A DNA stretch of 24,748 nt from a virus, in the IMG/VR virus record IMGVR_UViG_3300037882_001188, positions 1 through 24,748 of that record. One strand, given 5' to 3'. Of the stretch, positions 10,360 through 23,284 are shown in pieces (position 1 is the first letter of the stretch; each line of letters begins with the position of its first letter). The translations under genes were made by a program, and so were the position numbers. A model generated the notes under the pieces. That model was not told the DNA's origin. It searched no databases and saw only the letters and a program-made list of their open reading frames with translations.

Positions 10360-12021
10360 TTAGAGAGGTGATGTGTTGGCGTGGACAACGGGGCGGCGGG
10401 ATTTTGATGGATACCTCAGCGGCTTGTGGGCCTTCGCCTCGATGGTAAGCTGGCGCATCCTATTAAAAGGATTGTCTCCGCTCGTGTCTACACCTTTACG
10501 AACTTGTTTAGGATAGCGGAGAAGCTGCACTAAGCCTTGCAGCGCATCGGGTAAATCATCATGCGTACCGTAGGGGAATCGCTCAAGCTCACTCTCCAGG
10601 TCGCCTTGCCCGCGCTTGTGAAAGATGACATGTTGGGCATATCGCGGCTGGAGTCGTGTCTCAATGCGGGTATTCTTATCAGCATCCCAGACTAGCTCGG
10701 TGGTAGTGATATAAACATTCTCCCGCTTCATCTTCTGGCGCAGCAAGTACTGAGTAACATTCTCTAGCATCGCTTTCTCGAAGCCCACAGGCACATCGCT
10801 ACCGGTGACCCTGCGCAACTTGTCCACAATGGTGAATAGGTGGTCGCCAACTTCATCCGGCTTCATGCCGCGCTTGGCCACATAGTCACCAACAAGAATT
10901 TCATTCTGCGGAGTCAGGAATCCTGGGAGAATAACACTCCTGTCGTTCTCCCGCTTCTCCTTCCAGGCCAAGTCGCAGGCCACCGCCGCTCGGCAGTCCC
11001 CTATGCTACCCCCTCCCACCATGTTTCCATCTTGGTCAAGTAGGGTATACCGCCCCTCACCCTCCCGCCAGTAGCGGAAATCTTCCCTCTTGAACCTGAC
11101 ATTCTGCCCAGCAACGGGGTCATTCTGGTACTCCTTGGCGAAGACTGTGGGCTTGGCCTTCTCAAGATTGTTGAGTTCCTCTACTGACCATTGCTCTGGC
11201 CAGAGGCTTCGCATCTCACCATGCTTCTCATATCGCGCTCGGTAGAATAACTTGGTATACTCTGGGTAGTGGTCGGTACCAACGAGCCGCGCTATTAGCG
11301 CATCGTCATGGAGAACCGTCCCGATGAAGATGAACTGACAGGCATCTTTGTCTCCTGCTGGGATAAGCGCGTCGTCGAAGTCACCCTGTAGCTGTAGACG
11401 GCGTTCACTCGACCTGACAAGTTCATCGTCCTCCATGTCATCCCCGATGATGAGGTCTGGACGCCAAGCCCCGAACTTGACACCACGGATGCTACCAATC
11501 TGGTCAACACCCTTACATAAAATCTTTGTTTCGAAGCCGTCGGGATGGCGAACAACGCTGTCACCCTCAGCATCCTTGGAAATCTCAACCCCTTGGAAGT
11601 GGGTGCGCAGCTTCTGGTTCTCCCTAATCTCCTTCTTGATGGTGTCGAGGGACATCGCGGACTTCTTGAAGGTATTCTGGACAATGACGATAAACCGCTT
11701 TTGCTTGAACATGATGGCGTGGATTGGTTTTAGGAACATGAGAATCGTGGACTTTGCGCTTCCACGAGGCGCAGCCACAGCCAGGTGCCGCTCGGTGATT
11801 GACTTCTCCATAAGCTGGAGATGAAACGGCGGCGTATTCTTGCGGGTATGCTCACCGAAGAACATGTGGAAGAACACCACGGGGTTAGCCTTCAGCTTAT
11901 TGTAGATTTCCTGGGCGATATCGACTGGCGGCGCGGGTGGTGGCGCAGCCTCTGGAACTTGCGCGTTTTCAGCGATTTTACGAGAGCGCTTTGCTACTGG
12001 ACGGCGAGGTTTAATCGACAT
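10360..12021 (-). CDS. terL: Terminase large subunit (packaging ATPase and nuclease)
   Basis: A 553-residue motor protein that pumps DNA into the prohead through the portal and cuts concatemers. After a Pro/Ala-rich N-terminus (residues 1-35), the ATPase has Walker A APRGSAKST (about 84-92), Walker B DLIIGDDMED (about 189-198), and the coupling motif FIFIGT (about 230-235). The RNase H-like nuclease has Asp350 in AVACDLAWKE, a second acid in FEKAMLENV (about 414-422) and a third in HDDLPDALQG (about 487-496). All key residues are visible. The ATG lacks an obvious ribosome site, which is odd for such a gene. The array of DnaA-like boxes lies directly upstream, between it and terS. Confidence 0.95.
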   Translation of the reverse strand: MSIKPRRPVAKRSRKIAENAQVPEAAPPPAPPVDIAQEIYNKLKANPVVFFHMFFGEHTRKNTPPFHLQLMEKSITERHLAVAAPRGSAKSTILMFLKPIHAIMFKQKRFIVIVQNTFKKSAMSLDTIKKEIRENQKLRTHFQGVEISKDAEGDSVVRHPDGFETKILCKGVDQIGSIRGVKFGAWRPDLIIGDDMEDDELVRSSERRLQLQGDFDDALIPAGDKDACQFIFIGTVLHDDALIARLVGTDHYPEYTKLFYRARYEKHGEMRSLWPEQWSVEELNNLEKAKPTVFAKEYQNDPVAGQNVRFKREDFRYWREGEGRYTLLDQDGNMVGGGSIGDCRAAVACDLAWKEKRENDRSVILPGFLTPQNEILVGDYVAKRGMKPDEVGDHLFTIVDKLRRVTGSDVPVGFEKAMLENVTQYLLRQKMKRENVYITTTELVWDADKNTRIETRLQPRYAQHVIFHKRGQGDLESELERFPYGTHDDLPDALQGLVQLLRYPKQVRKGVDTSGDNPFNRMRQLTIEAKAHKPLRYPSKSRRPVVHANTSPL

Positions 12022-12063
12022 AAAAAGGTAGATAATTAGGTGAAAAAGTTATCGGCGCGTGGG

Positions 12064-12117
12064 AGAGGGGTTTGCCCTCGCACCCGCCAGGGGGGGAGCC
12101 CCCATGTTAGCCCCTCT
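12064..12117. repeat. Inverted repeat enclosing a G-run/C-run hairpin
   Basis: AGAGGGG (12064-12070) and CCCCTCT (12111-12117) are exact complements. They enclose a second possible stem in which GGGG and CCCC (12093-12102) flank a short loop. The structure lies between the DnaA-box array and the terL start, on the late transcript. It could slow transcription between terS and terL, or mark a packaging site. The 43 nt from here to the terL ATG are A/T-rich and show nothing else. Confidence 0.4.
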
Positions 12118-12125
12118 GCACAACC

Positions 12126-12259
12126 TGTGTATAAACTGTGTACAACTTGTGGGTAACCCTGTGCATAAGCTGTGGATAACTTGTGTACAACATTGTGTAC
12201 ATCCTGTGGATAACCCTGTGGATAACCTGTGAAAATAGTTGTGGACAAACTGTGGGCAA
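12126..12259 (+). other. Phased array of twelve DnaA-box-like 9-mers (candidate replication origin)
   Basis: Twelve 9-mers of the form TGTGNNNAA, or one or two bases off it, begin at 12126, 12137, 12148, 12160, 12171, 12182, 12194, 12205, 12217, 12228, 12240 and 12251. All have the same orientation and steps of 11 or 12 nt. Three (12171, 12205, 12217) are TGTGGATAA, the exact reverse complement of the DnaA box TTATCCACA; others are near matches such as TGTGGACAA and TGTGCATAA. The step of about 11.4 nt puts every box on nearly one face of the helix, as expected for a cooperative protein filament. Host DnaA binding is the simplest reading. Because the array separates terS from terL, a packaging-site role is an alternative. 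Confidence 0.75.
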
Positions 12260-12264
12260 CTGTG

Positions 12265-12756
12265 CTAGGCATCCGCGTCGGCGCGCAACCGCTGCGCGAC
12301 CGCTTCAATCTTGGCCAGTGTATCGGTCAACTGAGACGCGGTCTCATTCGTGATATTGAACGACACCGAACGCGCATCAACTTGCGGCGCGTCGCTGAGT
12401 ACTCCATGAATTTTTAGGCATGTTTGCACCGCTGATAATTGAACCTGGCCGTCGGGAGTTTTTGCTATCAGCTTGCCGTCTTTGTCGAGTACATGACGCT
12501 TAAATCTCCTGAGCCGTTGCAAATCTGCGCTGACGCGCTCTATCGGATTGAACCGCAAAACCAGCTGACGCGCTCTATCCTGCACCTCATTGTTATTTGT
12601 TAGCAGGCGCGTCGCGCCGCTTCTTGCCGCCGCTGGTGTAGCTCGTGGAAAAACCTCGCTGTAAACTGCGCTTTTGGTGACCATATCGGCCGATTGTGTG
12701 GCCAGCTGACGGGCATATGCCTGAGCCAGCTTTTCGTGGCGGGGATTCTTTAACAT
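12265..12756 (-). CDS. terS: Terminase small subunit
   Basis: A 163-residue probable small terminase, which recognises phage DNA and loads TerL. The N-terminal third reads as the usual helix-turn-helix of this family: EKLAQAYARQLATQSADMVT, then the segment SAVYSEVFPRATPAAARSGA and RLLTNNNEVQDRARQL, closely matching the pattern in which recurring (G/A)Y...A...AA..G..LL.N..V..R appears. A long charged helix region (about 65-100) suits oligomerisation, and the LSAVQTCLKIHGVL segment matches the family's second conserved region. Base composition is like the G+C-rich segment rather than terL. No ribosome site is visible: a promoter -10 ends 6 nt before the ATG, suggesting a leaderless message. Confidence 0.75.
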   Translation of the reverse strand: MLKNPRHEKLAQAYARQLATQSADMVTKSAVYSEVFPRATPAAARSGATRLLTNNNEVQDRARQLVLRFNPIERVSADLQRLRRFKRHVLDKDGKLIAKTPDGQVQLSAVQTCLKIHGVLSDAPQVDARSVSFNITNETASQLTDTLAKIEAVAQRLRADADA

Positions 12757-13570: not shown

Positions 13571-14371
13571 TTAGCGCCCTCGCTTAATGACGCGCCCGAC
13601 CTCGCCAAGCAAGGCGGGATAAAGCTCGTCTAGGTTATTCACAACCGCGTGCCGCTTGTACAAGCTGGTGACTGCGTCCGACTGTATGCCGACACCGACC
13701 ACCGCAAGGCCGGAAGACTCGCACCGCCTGATTACCTGCCGGACTCCGTCGGCCTGCGGGTAGAACCAAGCGGCGGCGCGCTCGTAGCTGGCTTTTAGCG
13801 ATTGCTCGATTGCATTGCTGGGGTGACCGTCGCTGAGTACTACGATTAGCCGGACGGACTCCGGCTGACGCTGTACATGGCGGCGCATTAACTCCAACGC
13901 TGTGGCATCATAGTTTTGATGGGACCCGATATCCCATACCATTTTGGAGTATTCGGCAAATAATCGGGGTGACGCTTTCAATAGCTCGTCGGTCTTCCAA
14001 AACCGGACGAACTGATTAAAGGCCGCCGCCGATACTGTGCAACCGGAAGACACCAGCGAACGCGCTAGGCCATGAGCCGCGGCAAATGCCGCTTCATACC
14101 TCGCGGGGTTATCCACCTGACCGCGGCCGCGCTCGCCATCATCTCGGCATTGCATAGAGCCGGACGCGTCGACAAGTATGCCAATGTGGTAACTCGTATG
14201 CCTGCGCTTCTCCACCTCTGCGAATACCGCCGGACGCGACCCGCCGGAAGTGAACAGTTGGCTAACCCTGCCGCTGTCTAGCAACCCGCTAACCTTGCCG
14301 CGTAGTAACCGCCTGCCGCCGTTATCGCGTAGTGTGCCGCGTAGCTTTTGGGTAAATGTGGCCTGATTCAT
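13571..14371 (-). CDS. VWA-domain protein with intact MIDAS (CobT/MoxR-partner type)
   Basis: A 266-residue protein dominated by one von Willebrand A domain. The metal-ion-dependent adhesion site is complete: DASGSMQ (Asp68, Ser70, Ser72), Thr157 in NYDATAL, and Asp181 in VVLSDGHP. Residues 1-55 are basic and mention LLRGKVSGLLDSGRVSQLF, like the linker before the C-terminal VWA of CobT-type cobaltochelatase subunits. VWA proteins of this class work with a MoxR/CobS AAA+ ATPase, which is the next upstream gene, 2 nt away. Together such pairs remodel or load metals into a client protein. No cobalamin gene is present, so chelatase activity is unlikely. Client and role in infection are unknown. 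Confidence 0.85.
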   Translation of the reverse strand: MNQATFTQKLRGTLRDNGGRRLLRGKVSGLLDSGRVSQLFTSGGSRPAVFAEVEKRRHTSYHIGILVDASGSMQCRDDGERGRGQVDNPARYEAAFAAAHGLARSLVSSGCTVSAAAFNQFVRFWKTDELLKASPRLFAEYSKMVWDIGSHQNYDATALELMRRHVQRQPESVRLIVVLSDGHPSNAIEQSLKASYERAAAWFYPQADGVRQVIRRCESSGLAVVGVGIQSDAVTSLYKRHAVVNNLDELYPALLGEVGRVIKRGR

Positions 14372-14373
14372 GA

Positions 14374-15357
14374 TTACACCGCCGCCGCTGTTTTCGATTT
14401 CTCCGGCGATTCACCTAACGCGGCAACCAGCTGGGCAACCTTGGCCAACTTGGCAACCTCGCGCTCAGACTTGGCTAGGGCTTTCTCAAGGTCTGCGACG
14501 CGGCCGGACGCGGCAACTAGTTCCTCGACTGTGGCAACCGTCTCGACCTTGCGGCCGTCTAGCTTCACTCCTGCAGCTTCAATCGCGGCGCGGTCTGCCG
14601 CTTCCAGCTTGCCTACAATCGCGTACTTTACTGCCAGCTTGTAGGGCATGCCGTCGCGCAACATCTGAAGCGCGGATACTCCCTCGCGGATACTGAGCCG
14701 CGCCGACACCTCGCCGGATATCTGCAAATCTCCGACCTTTTCGAGAATTGCCGCGATGTTCACAATATCTACGTCGGCGGCTGTGGGAACCTGTGCCTTT
14801 AGTGCCTCGACGAGCCGGACACCGGACAACCGCGGGAACTCGACCGTTAGGCCAAAGCGCGATTTTAAGGCATGCGACAACTCGCGGGTACCAGCATAAT
14901 CTGCTGTGGGATTCATCGTCGCAACCAAGCAAAAACCGTCGGCGGCTGTGAACCGTTCTCCGGTCTCTTTGATAGTGAGTGAGGGCTTACGCTCGGCGAC
15001 TGAGTAAACCAGCGCAAGTACTTCGGCGGGTGACATATTCACCTCATCAAGGATTAGCACCGCGCCGCGCTTCATGGCCTGCGGGAGTATACCGACCTCG
15101 AAGAATGTACGCGCACCGTCGGCCGCACCGCGCCCAATGAATTGGTCTGCTGTGACATTACCGTCCATGTTTAACCGGATGACCTCAAGGCCTAGTGACT
15201 CGGCGACCTCGATTGCTAGCGATGTTTTTCCGGTACCTGTCTCGCCGATTAGTAATGACGGCATGCCGCTAGCCATTGCGTAGCGTAGCGCGTCGCGCTC
15301 TGCGTCAAGGCCGATGAGAGTAGAACTTTTGGCTGGCTGAACTTTGAATTTTATCAT
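14374..15357 (-). CDS. MoxR/CobS-type AAA+ ATPase
   Basis: A 327-residue AAA+ ATPase. Walker A is GETGTGKTS (38-46), Walker B LILDEVNM (101-108), sensor 1 is ATMNP with Asn149, and the arginine finger is in SRFG (Arg167). The pattern DQFIGRG after the first strands (about 71-77) and ERKPSLTIKETGE match MoxR/CobS proteins. The C-terminal 50 residues (about 275-315) form a charged coiled coil, then an Ala-rich tail; this extension is unlike short MoxR proteins and may bind the VWA partner. The ribosome site GGAG lies 10 nt before the ATG. It forms an operon with the VWA gene. Phages do carry CobS-like ATPases, but their function is unclear. Confidence 0.88.
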   Translation of the reverse strand: MIKFKVQPAKSSTLIGLDAERDALRYAMASGMPSLLIGETGTGKTSLAIEVAESLGLEVIRLNMDGNVTADQFIGRGAADGARTFFEVGILPQAMKRGAVLILDEVNMSPAEVLALVYSVAERKPSLTIKETGERFTAADGFCLVATMNPTADYAGTRELSHALKSRFGLTVEFPRLSGVRLVEALKAQVPTAADVDIVNIAAILEKVGDLQISGEVSARLSIREGVSALQMLRDGMPYKLAVKYAIVGKLEAADRAAIEAAGVKLDGRKVETVATVEELVAASGRVADLEKALAKSEREVAKLAKVAQLVAALGESPEKSKTAAAV

Positions 15358-16297: not shown

Positions 16298-16340
16298 ATA
16301 TCCACAAGTTTTCCACAAGCTGGGGATAACCTGTGGATAA
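16298..16340. other. Second DnaA-box cluster, mirrored arrangement
   Basis: Four 9-mers start at 16298 (ATATCCACA), 16309 (TTTTCCACA), 16321 (TGGGGATAA) and 16332 (TGTGGATAA). The last is a perfect box and the others differ from TTATCCACA or its complement by one base. The first two face one way and the last two the other, again in 11-12-nt steps. The next 60 nt become A/T-rich with a run of eight T. Together with the three repeats that follow, this is a plausible origin or replication-control region. Confidence 0.6.
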
Positions 16341-16400: not shown

Positions 16401-16557
16401 TTTTACTTGAGTTCACGAAAATATATGGGGTTGATTGAAAGTGGGTCGGGGGAATTTTACTTGAGTCCTGCGGAATTATGGGGACGAATCAAAAGTGGTT
16501 GGGGGGAATTTTACTTGAGTGGTGAGAAATTGGGCAATTCAAAGTGATTCCCCAAAG
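16401..16557 (+). repeat. Three 54-bp direct repeats in the early control region
   Basis: The block TTTTACTTGAGT occurs exactly at 16401, 16455 and 16509, a 54-nt period. Each is followed by a variable part and then a shared AAAGTG with a G/C-rich end: AAAGTGGGT, AAAGTGGTT and AAAGTGATT. The third unit is about 5 nt shorter. The 370 nt between the gene ending at 16288 and the one starting at 16659 contain this array, the second DnaA cluster and a promoter, and no gene. Repeated sites this close to a promoter usually bind a regulator or a replication initiator. Confidence 0.7.
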
Positions 16558-17580: not shown

Positions 17581-18591
17581 CTAACTTTTGACAGCATCGG
17601 GCGCTTTTGACGCCCGTAATGTAAAAGCCCGCTCCTTGCCGATATCTTCGTAAACAACCTTTTTATCCTTTATCAGAATATTCATGGATTGTTTGAGGGT
17701 GATGAGCGCTAGACCGGTGAACTCCATCAGTTCTTTGTATGAGACGCATTGGTGAAGCTTGATTTGGTGGAGAATCATTTCGGCGGATGGTGTGTAGTCC
17801 CCCTTTATTTGGAAGCACAAGGGGGCTGGTTCGACGAGAATGAGCGATAGGCGCTCCTCGCTTGTCTTCGATGACCTAGTGGTATCGCAGGACAACATTC
17901 GTGTTTTGTCCTTCATCTTCTTGAGGTAGAAGATGTGGTCGACATAGGCACGAAGGAAGACGCTACCGTAGCTGCCCTTGTCGCCCCGCTCAATCTCACC
18001 CTTAGTCTTGTCATCACGCCATTCCTTGGAGTCGTGGTGGATGAGGATGATGGAGGCGTGGTAGCGGGAGATGAATTCATCAAGTGCGTTGGTGAATGCG
18101 ATTACATCGCTGTTGTCATTAAGGTCGCCGTCCATGGCCTTGTAGACCGAGTCGATGATGATGGCGACGGGAGGTTCACCCCACACAAGTATTTGAGCGT
18201 CGATGAGGTCGAATACCGCTTGGCGTACAGGTTCGTGGTTTAGGGGCATGAACTTCTTGAAGATGTGGAGAAATTTGGAGTCCACAAATCCTTCCATCGA
18301 CATGCAGATGTTGTTGAGGCGGTCGACGAATTCATCCCGCTTACCTTCCGCTTGGATGTAGACAACTGGGCCAGGTTTCTCTACTTTGAACTTATCGAGG
18401 AATGGGCGACCTGTGACTATTGACATGGCAAGTTGTTGTGCGCCGATTGACTTACCGGCCTTCTCACTACCAAGCCACATCGCTACATCTTCTTTCCAGA
18501 CAAAGTTTTCAACGATTGTTTCTGGTGGGGTACTGTTGGTGCGCAGCGTTTCTCCGCAGAACGCCTGTAATTTCAGATGCTTCATTGTCAT
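17581..18591 (-). CDS. RepA/AAA_25-type RecA-fold ATPase with C-terminal winged helix
   Basis: A 336-residue P-loop ATPase of the RecA/RepA-helicase class. Walker A is GSEKAGKSI (41-49), Walker B VAIIIDSVY (142-150), and ILIHHDSK (182-189) is the His-containing motif of hexameric RepA-like helicases. Residues about 268-326 look like a winged helix (SAEMILHQIKLHQCVSYKEL and NILIKDKKVVYEDIGKERAF), which could bind DNA. It is the only long minus-strand gene in the right arm, convergent with the RlpA-like gene and divergent from the zinc-ribbon gene. GGAG lies 7 nt before the ATG. It may be a replicative helicase or its loader; a Sak-type recombination ATPase is the alternative. There is no primase in view. 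Confidence 0.82.
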   Translation of the reverse strand: MTMKHLKLQAFCGETLRTNSTPPETIVENFVWKEDVAMWLGSEKAGKSIGAQQLAMSIVTGRPFLDKFKVEKPGPVVYIQAEGKRDEFVDRLNNICMSMEGFVDSKFLHIFKKFMPLNHEPVRQAVFDLIDAQILVWGEPPVAIIIDSVYKAMDGDLNDNSDVIAFTNALDEFISRYHASIILIHHDSKEWRDDKTKGEIERGDKGSYGSVFLRAYVDHIFYLKKMKDKTRMLSCDTTRSSKTSEERLSLILVEPAPLCFQIKGDYTPSAEMILHQIKLHQCVSYKELMEFTGLALITLKQSMNILIKDKKVVYEDIGKERAFTLRASKAPDAVKS

Positions 18592-22314: not shown

Positions 22315-22509
22315 ATGGAAGAAACCCCAGAATTCATAGGTGAGACGCTGCCGGTGAAGCGGATGGTTGTGGAATGCGGGTGTCAGAAGACTCGGATGCA
22401 TCCTGTGATTCTCGTCCCAGCGCTTGACCAGCGGTGGTATATCGGGGAATGTCACAGGTGCGGTAAGCGGATTGCTGTGAAGCATGGGTTTGATGCCAAG
22501 CGCAATTAA
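22315..22509 (+). CDS. Small zinc-binding protein
   Basis: A 64-residue protein with a CxC pair (Cys21, Cys23) and CHRCG (Cys46, Cys49), probably a zinc ribbon, with a basic end (RIAVKHGFDAKRN). It overlaps the PAPS-reductase-like gene by 26 nt. The ribosome site is weak. No specific family is recognised. Confidence 0.6.
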   Translation: MEETPEFIGETLPVKRMVVECGCQKTRMHPVILVPALDQRWYIGECHRCGKRIAVKHGFDAKRN

Positions 22510-23284
22510 GGTCATGTCCTTTGGTGGTGGTATACAAACCGTCACCCTCGCCGCAATGTCCTGCCTTGGGGACTTCGAGATGCCAGACTACGCTGTCTTC
22601 GCAGATACCCAATGGGAGACGGAGGAGACCTACGCTTACCTCAACTGGTTCATACCGTGGTGTGCGGAGCGGGGGCTTACCATCCATACCACCAGTCTCG
22701 GTAGCCTGCGCAGCACCACCCTACACGACCCCACCAGAGGCATAATCATCCCCGCTTGGATGAAGAACAAGGATGGCAAGACCGTACCACTTAGTCGCCA
22801 ATGCACCCGAGAATACAAGATTGAGCCTGTTCGCCAGAAGATTCGTGAACTCTGCGGGGTCAAGTACCACTATCCCATGAAGACTCAAGTGGAGCTGTGG
22901 TTAGGTATCTCCGGTGACGAGGCTCACAGGATGAAGTTCAGCAGGGTCGGCTGGATGAAGAACCGGTACCCGTTTATCGAGCTTGAGATGGTTAGGTATG
23001 ACTGCGAGCTTTACCTCAAGAAACATGACCTTCCAGTACCACCCAAGTCCGCCTGTATCGGCTGTCCCTACCACTCCAACACTTACTGGGAGAATCTCAA
23101 GAAGAATGCCCCGAGCGACTGGGCAGATGCCGTGGAGTTTGATGAAAAGTTGAGAGGGTGTCTCAAGAAGATGGCAACGAAGGCATACCTACACCCCTCA
23201 TGCAAGCCGCTTAAGAACTTTGACCCAGATGGTAATTCTTCCGACTGGTTCGGCAACGAATGTGAGGGATTTTGTGGACTGTAA
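22484..23284 (+). CDS. PAPS-reductase-like PP-loop protein
   Basis: A 266-residue adenine-nucleotide alpha-hydrolase-fold protein of the phage 'phosphoadenosine phosphosulfate reductase' type. The PP-loop is SFGGGIQT (12-19), shifted from the usual SGGxxS. Further motifs are DTQWETEETY (41-50), RQCTREYK (105-112), GISGDEAHRM (141-150), and SACIGCPYH (189-197), whose Cys could bind metal or an Fe-S cluster. Such phage proteins are thought to act in nucleotide or nucleic-acid sulfur or modification chemistry rather than sulfate assimilation; no partner genes are present. The start is uncertain: ATGs at 22484, 22493 and 22514 are possible, and the first strand (AIKVMSFGGG) argues against 22514. 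Confidence 0.8.
   Translation: MGLMPSAIKVMSFGGGIQTVTLAAMSCLGDFEMPDYAVFADTQWETEETYAYLNWFIPWCAERGLTIHTTSLGSLRSTTLHDPTRGIIIPAWMKNKDGKTVPLSRQCTREYKIEPVRQKIRELCGVKYHYPMKTQVELWLGISGDEAHRMKFSRVGWMKNRYPFIELEMVRYDCELYLKKHDLPVPPKSACIGCPYHSNTYWENLKKNAPSDWADAVEFDEKLRGCLKKMATKAYLHPSCKPLKNFDPDGNSSDWFGNECEGFCGL

Follow-up and report, generated by a model that had tools for sequence, protein, structure and literature searches.

What might a long array of DnaA-like boxes be doing between the two terminase genes of a phage, when DnaA boxes are usually interpreted as replication origins? The question is raised by an uncultured phage known from IMG/VR record IMGVR_UViG_3300037882_001188, whose 24,748 bases were analysed as a whole and are called the window below. 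The first-pass annotation had described the array and proposed that replication and packaging may be joined there.

The array and the terS-terL gap

The features of the locus are the following.
12126 to 12259, plus strand: array of 12 DnaA-like boxes (TGTGNAYAA-like), read directly, tested by shuffling and by column conservation
12115 to 12123, plus strand: a further, degenerate box (the 13th), TCTGCACAA, which keeps the phase of the array, found by chain search
10360 to 12021, minus strand: terL, terminase large subunit (PHROG 38, E=4.4e-71)
12265 to 12756, minus strand: terS, probable terminase small subunit of 163 aa (35% identity to a gene of relative L004, E=2e-33)
12090 to 12114, minus strand: G-run element, AGGGGCTAACATGGGGGCTCCCCCCC on that strand, abutting the array on the terL side
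12056 to 12070, minus strand: conserved motif resembling TCTCMCACGCG, with a T-run after it, upstream of terL, from an alignment of the window with relatives L004-L007

All 12 boxes were found at the positions given by the first-pass annotation, in a single orientation on the plus strand. Three of them, at 12171, 12205 and 12217, equal TGTGGATAA, the claimed number of consensus-complement copies. Five of the 12 match TGTGNATAA exactly and those outside this set differ by 1-3 bases, in line with the claimed strays of one to a few. As in a DnaA-box cluster, multiple 9-mers fit TTATNCACA with few mismatches (five exact, the rest with 1-3 changes). The mean step, given earlier as about 11.4 nt, was measured as 11.36 bp (successive steps of 11, 11, 12, 11, 11, 12, 11, 12, 11, 12 and 11), with gaps of 2-3 bp between successive 9-mers. 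It had also been supposed that such a step would put the boxes on almost one helix face; this does not hold, as at 10.5 bp per turn they rotate through 326 degrees with a mean resultant of 0.09. A close array of 9-mer boxes nonetheless requires this spacing, of 9+2 or 9+3 bp.

The location between terS and terL was confirmed by the PHROG 38 match of terL and, for terS, by homology with the relatives L004 and L005. The terS homologue in L004 is the gene upstream of terL and that of L005 has a sub-threshold match to Terminase_2. A coding origin of the array was rejected, the crossing frames 12036-12308 and 12107-12259 (-) encoding the repeat only. A DNA hairpin was likewise discarded, the folding energy (z -1.7) lying only weakly under that of shuffled sequences. 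An Rfam search for an RNA element at the array gave no match, and a search of the terS-terL gap for a promoter or terminator gave nothing above chance level.

Identity of the boxes

The array is very unlike what chance would produce. Its chain score, defined as that of the best same-strand chain of boxes in the window, was 39.5, whereas dinucleotide shuffling of the entire window, repeated 150 times, gave scores with a mean of 4.8 and a maximum of 7.5. A comparison of the copies column by column showed TGTG and A8 to be invariant (0 of 60 changed, against 29 of 84 in the remaining box and spacer positions, p=1.7e-8); the alignment itself was anchored at TGTG, so that this test is not wholly register-blind. 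Variation within the box is greatest at the N of the DnaA consensus. Given the invariant TGTG and A8 and a freest position at N, the array was taken to consist of DnaA boxes, and on this pattern it probably is an array of sites that DnaA would bind.

A search for the same motif covered 2.9 million viral contigs. At steps of 11-12 bp, three exact boxes occurred in at least 120 contigs and the mirror-image motif in one; at steps of 13-14 bp, three boxes occurred in nine. The remark that phages rarely have so long an array is correct, five relaxed boxes running being present in 17 stretches of the 2.9 million viral contigs; 13 such stretches were found in 85,000 bacterial and archaeal species genomes. 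A BLAST search with a perfect consensus array returned no matches, probably owing to low-complexity masking. The earlier reading thus stands as to the boxes themselves, on the consensus match, the column pattern and the scarcity of mirror-image and wrong-period boxes; it falls as to the helical phasing that had been invoked for a filament.

An improbable alternative is that the array is a neutral tandem-repeat expansion, or that its repeats are recognised by one of the phage's own proteins, for instance TerS, and merely look like DnaA boxes. The higher-order periods of 45 and 57 bp reported by TRF, a sign of slippage, would suit such an expansion, as would the TerL relatives that have no array. 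Neither form of the idea accounts well for TGTG and A8 fixed in 12 copies with most freedom at the DnaA-box N, or for a motif that recurs in phages with unrelated terminases when its mirror image does not. Two further loci were noted. L091 is an 85-kb contig in which 30 DnaA-like boxes, spaced by exactly 12 bp, run through positions 5-361 inside an open reading frame. In L133 (765-910), another regular repeat, GTCACCGGTGAC, occurs in several copies after an array of five boxes.

Is the array a replication origin?

If the array were an origin, DnaA would be recruited to it, the nearby DNA would melt and replication would proceed from the terS-terL junction as from oriC. Arrays of low-affinity DnaA sites are known from the oriC of E. 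coli (Rozgaja et al. 2011, reviewed in PMC4285127), and that review presents arrays of boxes in one orientation as an oriC architecture. The E. coli arrays resemble that of the window in having close, same-orientation boxes in which consensus and weaker sites are mixed. The phage also encodes an AAA_25 RecA-like ATPase (17581-18591) that resembles replicative helicases/primases, and the phage would need a start site. The window array differs from oriC in its place among packaging genes, in its unbroken run of 12-13 boxes and in having no adjacent unwinding element: no oriC-type AT-rich element abuts it, and the 50-bp stretches that flank it both rank within the 1-3% of the window with the highest stability. 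No oriC-type change in GC skew was seen at 12 kb. The change occurs instead at 15-16 kb, the skew being weak as far as 16 kb and distinctly positive after it, although the skew is biased in its own right because gene direction switches in the same region. A second group of boxes was found close to this change.
16298 to 16340, no strand assigned: DnaA-box cluster with two boxes on each strand in a 19-bp imperfect inverted repeat, from the box scan and GC skew

Beside this cluster lies AT-rich DNA, followed by 54-bp direct repeats (16401-16531; AAAGTGGGTCGGGGGAATTTTACTTGAGT...). On these features, the region at 16.3-16.6 kb appears the likelier replication-origin candidate of the two. Hence, because of its stable flanks and of the better candidate at 16.3-16.6 kb, the array is not favoured as a replication start. 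That the T7-like phages bearing arrays (see below) encode their own RNA and DNA polymerases also counts against the origin reading, which is regarded as unlikely.

Relatives of the window phage

The relatives of terL are 46-62% identical in TerL. No comparable array was found in the whole records of eight of them or in the flanks of 23 related loci. Conservation in close relatives, which the first-pass annotation had made a test of its reading, was therefore found to be lacking in the TerL family of the window phage, and the array, being missing from these relatives, is not essential there.

What the relatives do have is the neighbouring noncoding element. A G-run element is also present in the array-less relatives L004-L007. 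In several relatives, in or near the same gap, the G-run (e.g. CGGGGGAGGGG) is followed by TCTCMCACGCG and a T-run; the combination of G-run and TCTCMCACGCG upstream of terL was recorded in the window (12056-12114) and in L004, L005, L006, L007, L163 and L171. By analogy, this element is a candidate for the site where packaging is initiated (cos/pac-like), and it does not depend on the array; the odds that the G-run element here is a cos or pac site are put at about even. In L004, the conserved element begins directly after the terS stop codon. Since the array abuts the element in the window and the L004 element follows terS directly, the array has the look of an added piece of some 135-145 bp, placed between terS and a conserved element at which packaging may begin.

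Gain and loss could be followed in another TerL family, that of L060, for which 63 relatives (TerL at least 86% identical) were sampled regardless of arrays. Arrays were present in 12 of the 63, every time 1254-1518 bp upstream of terL, and the mirror-motif array in none. One member, L265, has ten exact boxes, and no boxes are present in two others with TerL 100% identical to it, L266 and L267. The alignment of L265 with L266 starts about 1264 bp upstream of terL and continues from there, the two differing on the array side. Near this position, a G-run element is found in most members of the family with or without an array; in L265 and L288, 3-8 bp separate it from the end of the array. On the alignments, arrays are gained and lost at a fixed site in this family; the fixed position, the gain and loss and the persistent G-run indicate that the array is an optional module there. 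The lack of arrays in the relatives of the window phage hence leaves the positional signal standing. Between L265 and L266/L267, a block of about ten boxes at 1.2-1.6 kb upstream of terL is either present or replaced, and this difference is possibly a noncoding cassette exchange.

Arrays near terL in unrelated viral contigs

A set of 133 array-bearing viral stretches was assembled, of which 45 contain a TerL, with representatives checked against PHROGs. An L095 protein first taken for a TerL proved to be a portal and was removed. In 35 of the 45 loci, the array is found upstream of terL at a distance of no more than 2 kb, compared with 18-22 expected if arrays were placed at random in the intergenic DNA of these stretches (0 of 200,000 simulations reached 35), many of these loci being related to one another. 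With one locus for each TerL lineage (<40% identity), the count is 12 of 19 against 6.9-7.9 expected, with a median P of 0.002-0.006 and 0.056 in the worst draw, so that the enrichment near terL at the level of lineages is modest though significant. A second pattern set yielded seven stretches with a TerL, which represent about three or four lineages, and in six of them the array was within 2 kb upstream. The site near terL is not exclusive, because no TerL was detected in 87 of the 133 array loci, in the stretches examined. Over all array loci, G-run elements occur at 0.56 per kb within 150 bp of arrays and at 0.05 per kb elsewhere, a difference of about 10-fold. PHROG scans comparing array-flanking with distant proteins were too sparse for stand-alone use. 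The position of arrays in unrelated phages nevertheless supports a putative link with packaging, and this half of the proposed joining of replication and packaging is retained, on comparative grounds; the other half, a replication start at the array, was not favoured above.

The distribution also bears on the idea that the array is a sink, in which multicopy phage boxes would titrate DnaA and halt initiation in the host. On the bacterial chromosome, datA titrates DnaA with the help of IHF and a few boxes; it too is a box cluster without an origin, and the window array differs from it in being tied to terminase genes. Twelve clustered boxes with no unwinding element would serve such a purpose, and gain and loss among near-identical phages fits a dispensable anti-host function. 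A sink could be placed anywhere, yet the arrays favour terL-proximal noncoding DNA with a G-run as neighbour, and most of them have just 3-5 boxes. This reading is considered slightly less probable than the already unlikely origin.

Arrays at phage genome ends

In several sequenced phages, arrays lie at or near the end of the genome. In the Arthrobacter phages Seahorse and Auxilium, GGGGGG follows the array after 5-6 bp, the deposited right end, where the record ends, is 48-49 bp beyond the array, and terL starts at base 599 from the left end. The T7-like phages A7 and phiEap-1 have arrays at both record ends, inside the terminal repeats, and P483, nasanit and BD1 have them in the corresponding noncoding region. 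Shorter box runs occur within the first few kb of the T5-like phages ESCO30 and River4. The arrays of the Berlinvirus phages A7 and P483 and of the Eapunavirus phiEap-1 are like that of the window in that TTATCCACA-like boxes follow one another every 11-12 bp beside a terminus, a putative one in the window. They differ in that these phages are T7-like, with unrelated terminases, and carry the boxes within their direct terminal repeats. No description of these terminal arrays was found in the literature searched. The record of Shigella phage A7 carries no annotation of boxes, although its terminal repeats (L236:22-147 and 39903-40028) are rich in them.

For T5, PMC13250531, which cites Davison 2015 and Heusterspreute 1987, describes repeats and DnaA boxes in the injection-stop region. 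That region is comparable to the window array in its DnaA boxes and repeats, which in T5 lie near a genome end. That region is part of the terminal pre-early region, in contrast to an array between packaging genes, and no pre-early gene of the A1/A2 type was found in the 24,748-base fragment. It could be argued from what is proposed for the T5 injection-stop signal, and from the T5-like and T7-like phages with boxes near genome ends, that array-bound DnaA halts DNA entry or, between terS and terL of the window phage, RNA polymerase. The array precedes terL amid packaging genes, a place where the phage would pay dearly for a strong block, and arrays are further upstream of terL in other phages. 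The boxes also lack a constant orientation with respect to terL (12 same, 8 opposite), which weakens a strict version of the architectural role proposed below as well. A pause or roadblock is thus given little credence. In order of rank, the rivals are the origin, titration, the entry pause or roadblock and neutral repeats.

Proposed role of the array

The preferred reading, to which a probability of roughly 0.4 is assigned, is that the array is a docking site for host DnaA beside a packaging-initiation or terminus site, carried as an optional module. DnaA would nucleate at the five consensus boxes and spread over the weaker ones by steps of 11-12 bp, so that a nucleoprotein filament would form next to terS-terL and the G-run element. 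At the terminus, the filament might serve in cis as an architectural or occupancy factor, as IHF does at lambda cosB, and might tune terminase loading or the handling of the terminus (entry, circularisation, replication start) to host DnaA. The module would be optional, phages gaining and losing one at such sites. The cis role at the terminus is itself proposed tentatively.

In lambda, cosB provides an IHF site at the terminase recognition region. The likeness lies in a site for a host DNA-binding protein next to a region that terminase recognises or, in the window, may recognise; as at cosB, the window array stands beside terminase genes and a conserved noncoding element, here the one common to L004-L007. 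The differences are that DnaA is proposed rather than IHF and that there are twelve sites.

It is more doubtful, though conceivable, that unrelated tailed phages repeatedly acquire such arrays beside the packaging terminus and that DnaA is a general cis factor of genome-end handling. If so, terminus arrays would connect the control of host replication with phage packaging in a way not yet described, whether at the start of packaging, at entry or at circularisation. A host replication protein would gain a possible second job at phage DNA ends. If the terminus is a recurrent place of DnaA boxes in phages, origin calls in phage genomes would also need revising. In the literature searched, in which few subscription papers were covered, no description was found of DnaA boxes tied to terminase genes, cos or phage termini; the kind of site is known and its recurrent place is apparently undescribed. 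Direct testing is possible because the cultured phages Seahorse, Auxilium, A7 and phiEap-1 have arrays.

Other genes of the window

Two further observations concern genes of the window. Close to terS (13571-15357), adjacent AAA_5 ATPase and VWA/CobT_C-like genes form a cobaltochelatase-like pair, and a gene resembling phosphoadenosine phosphosulfate reductase (PHROG 424) lies at 22484-23284.
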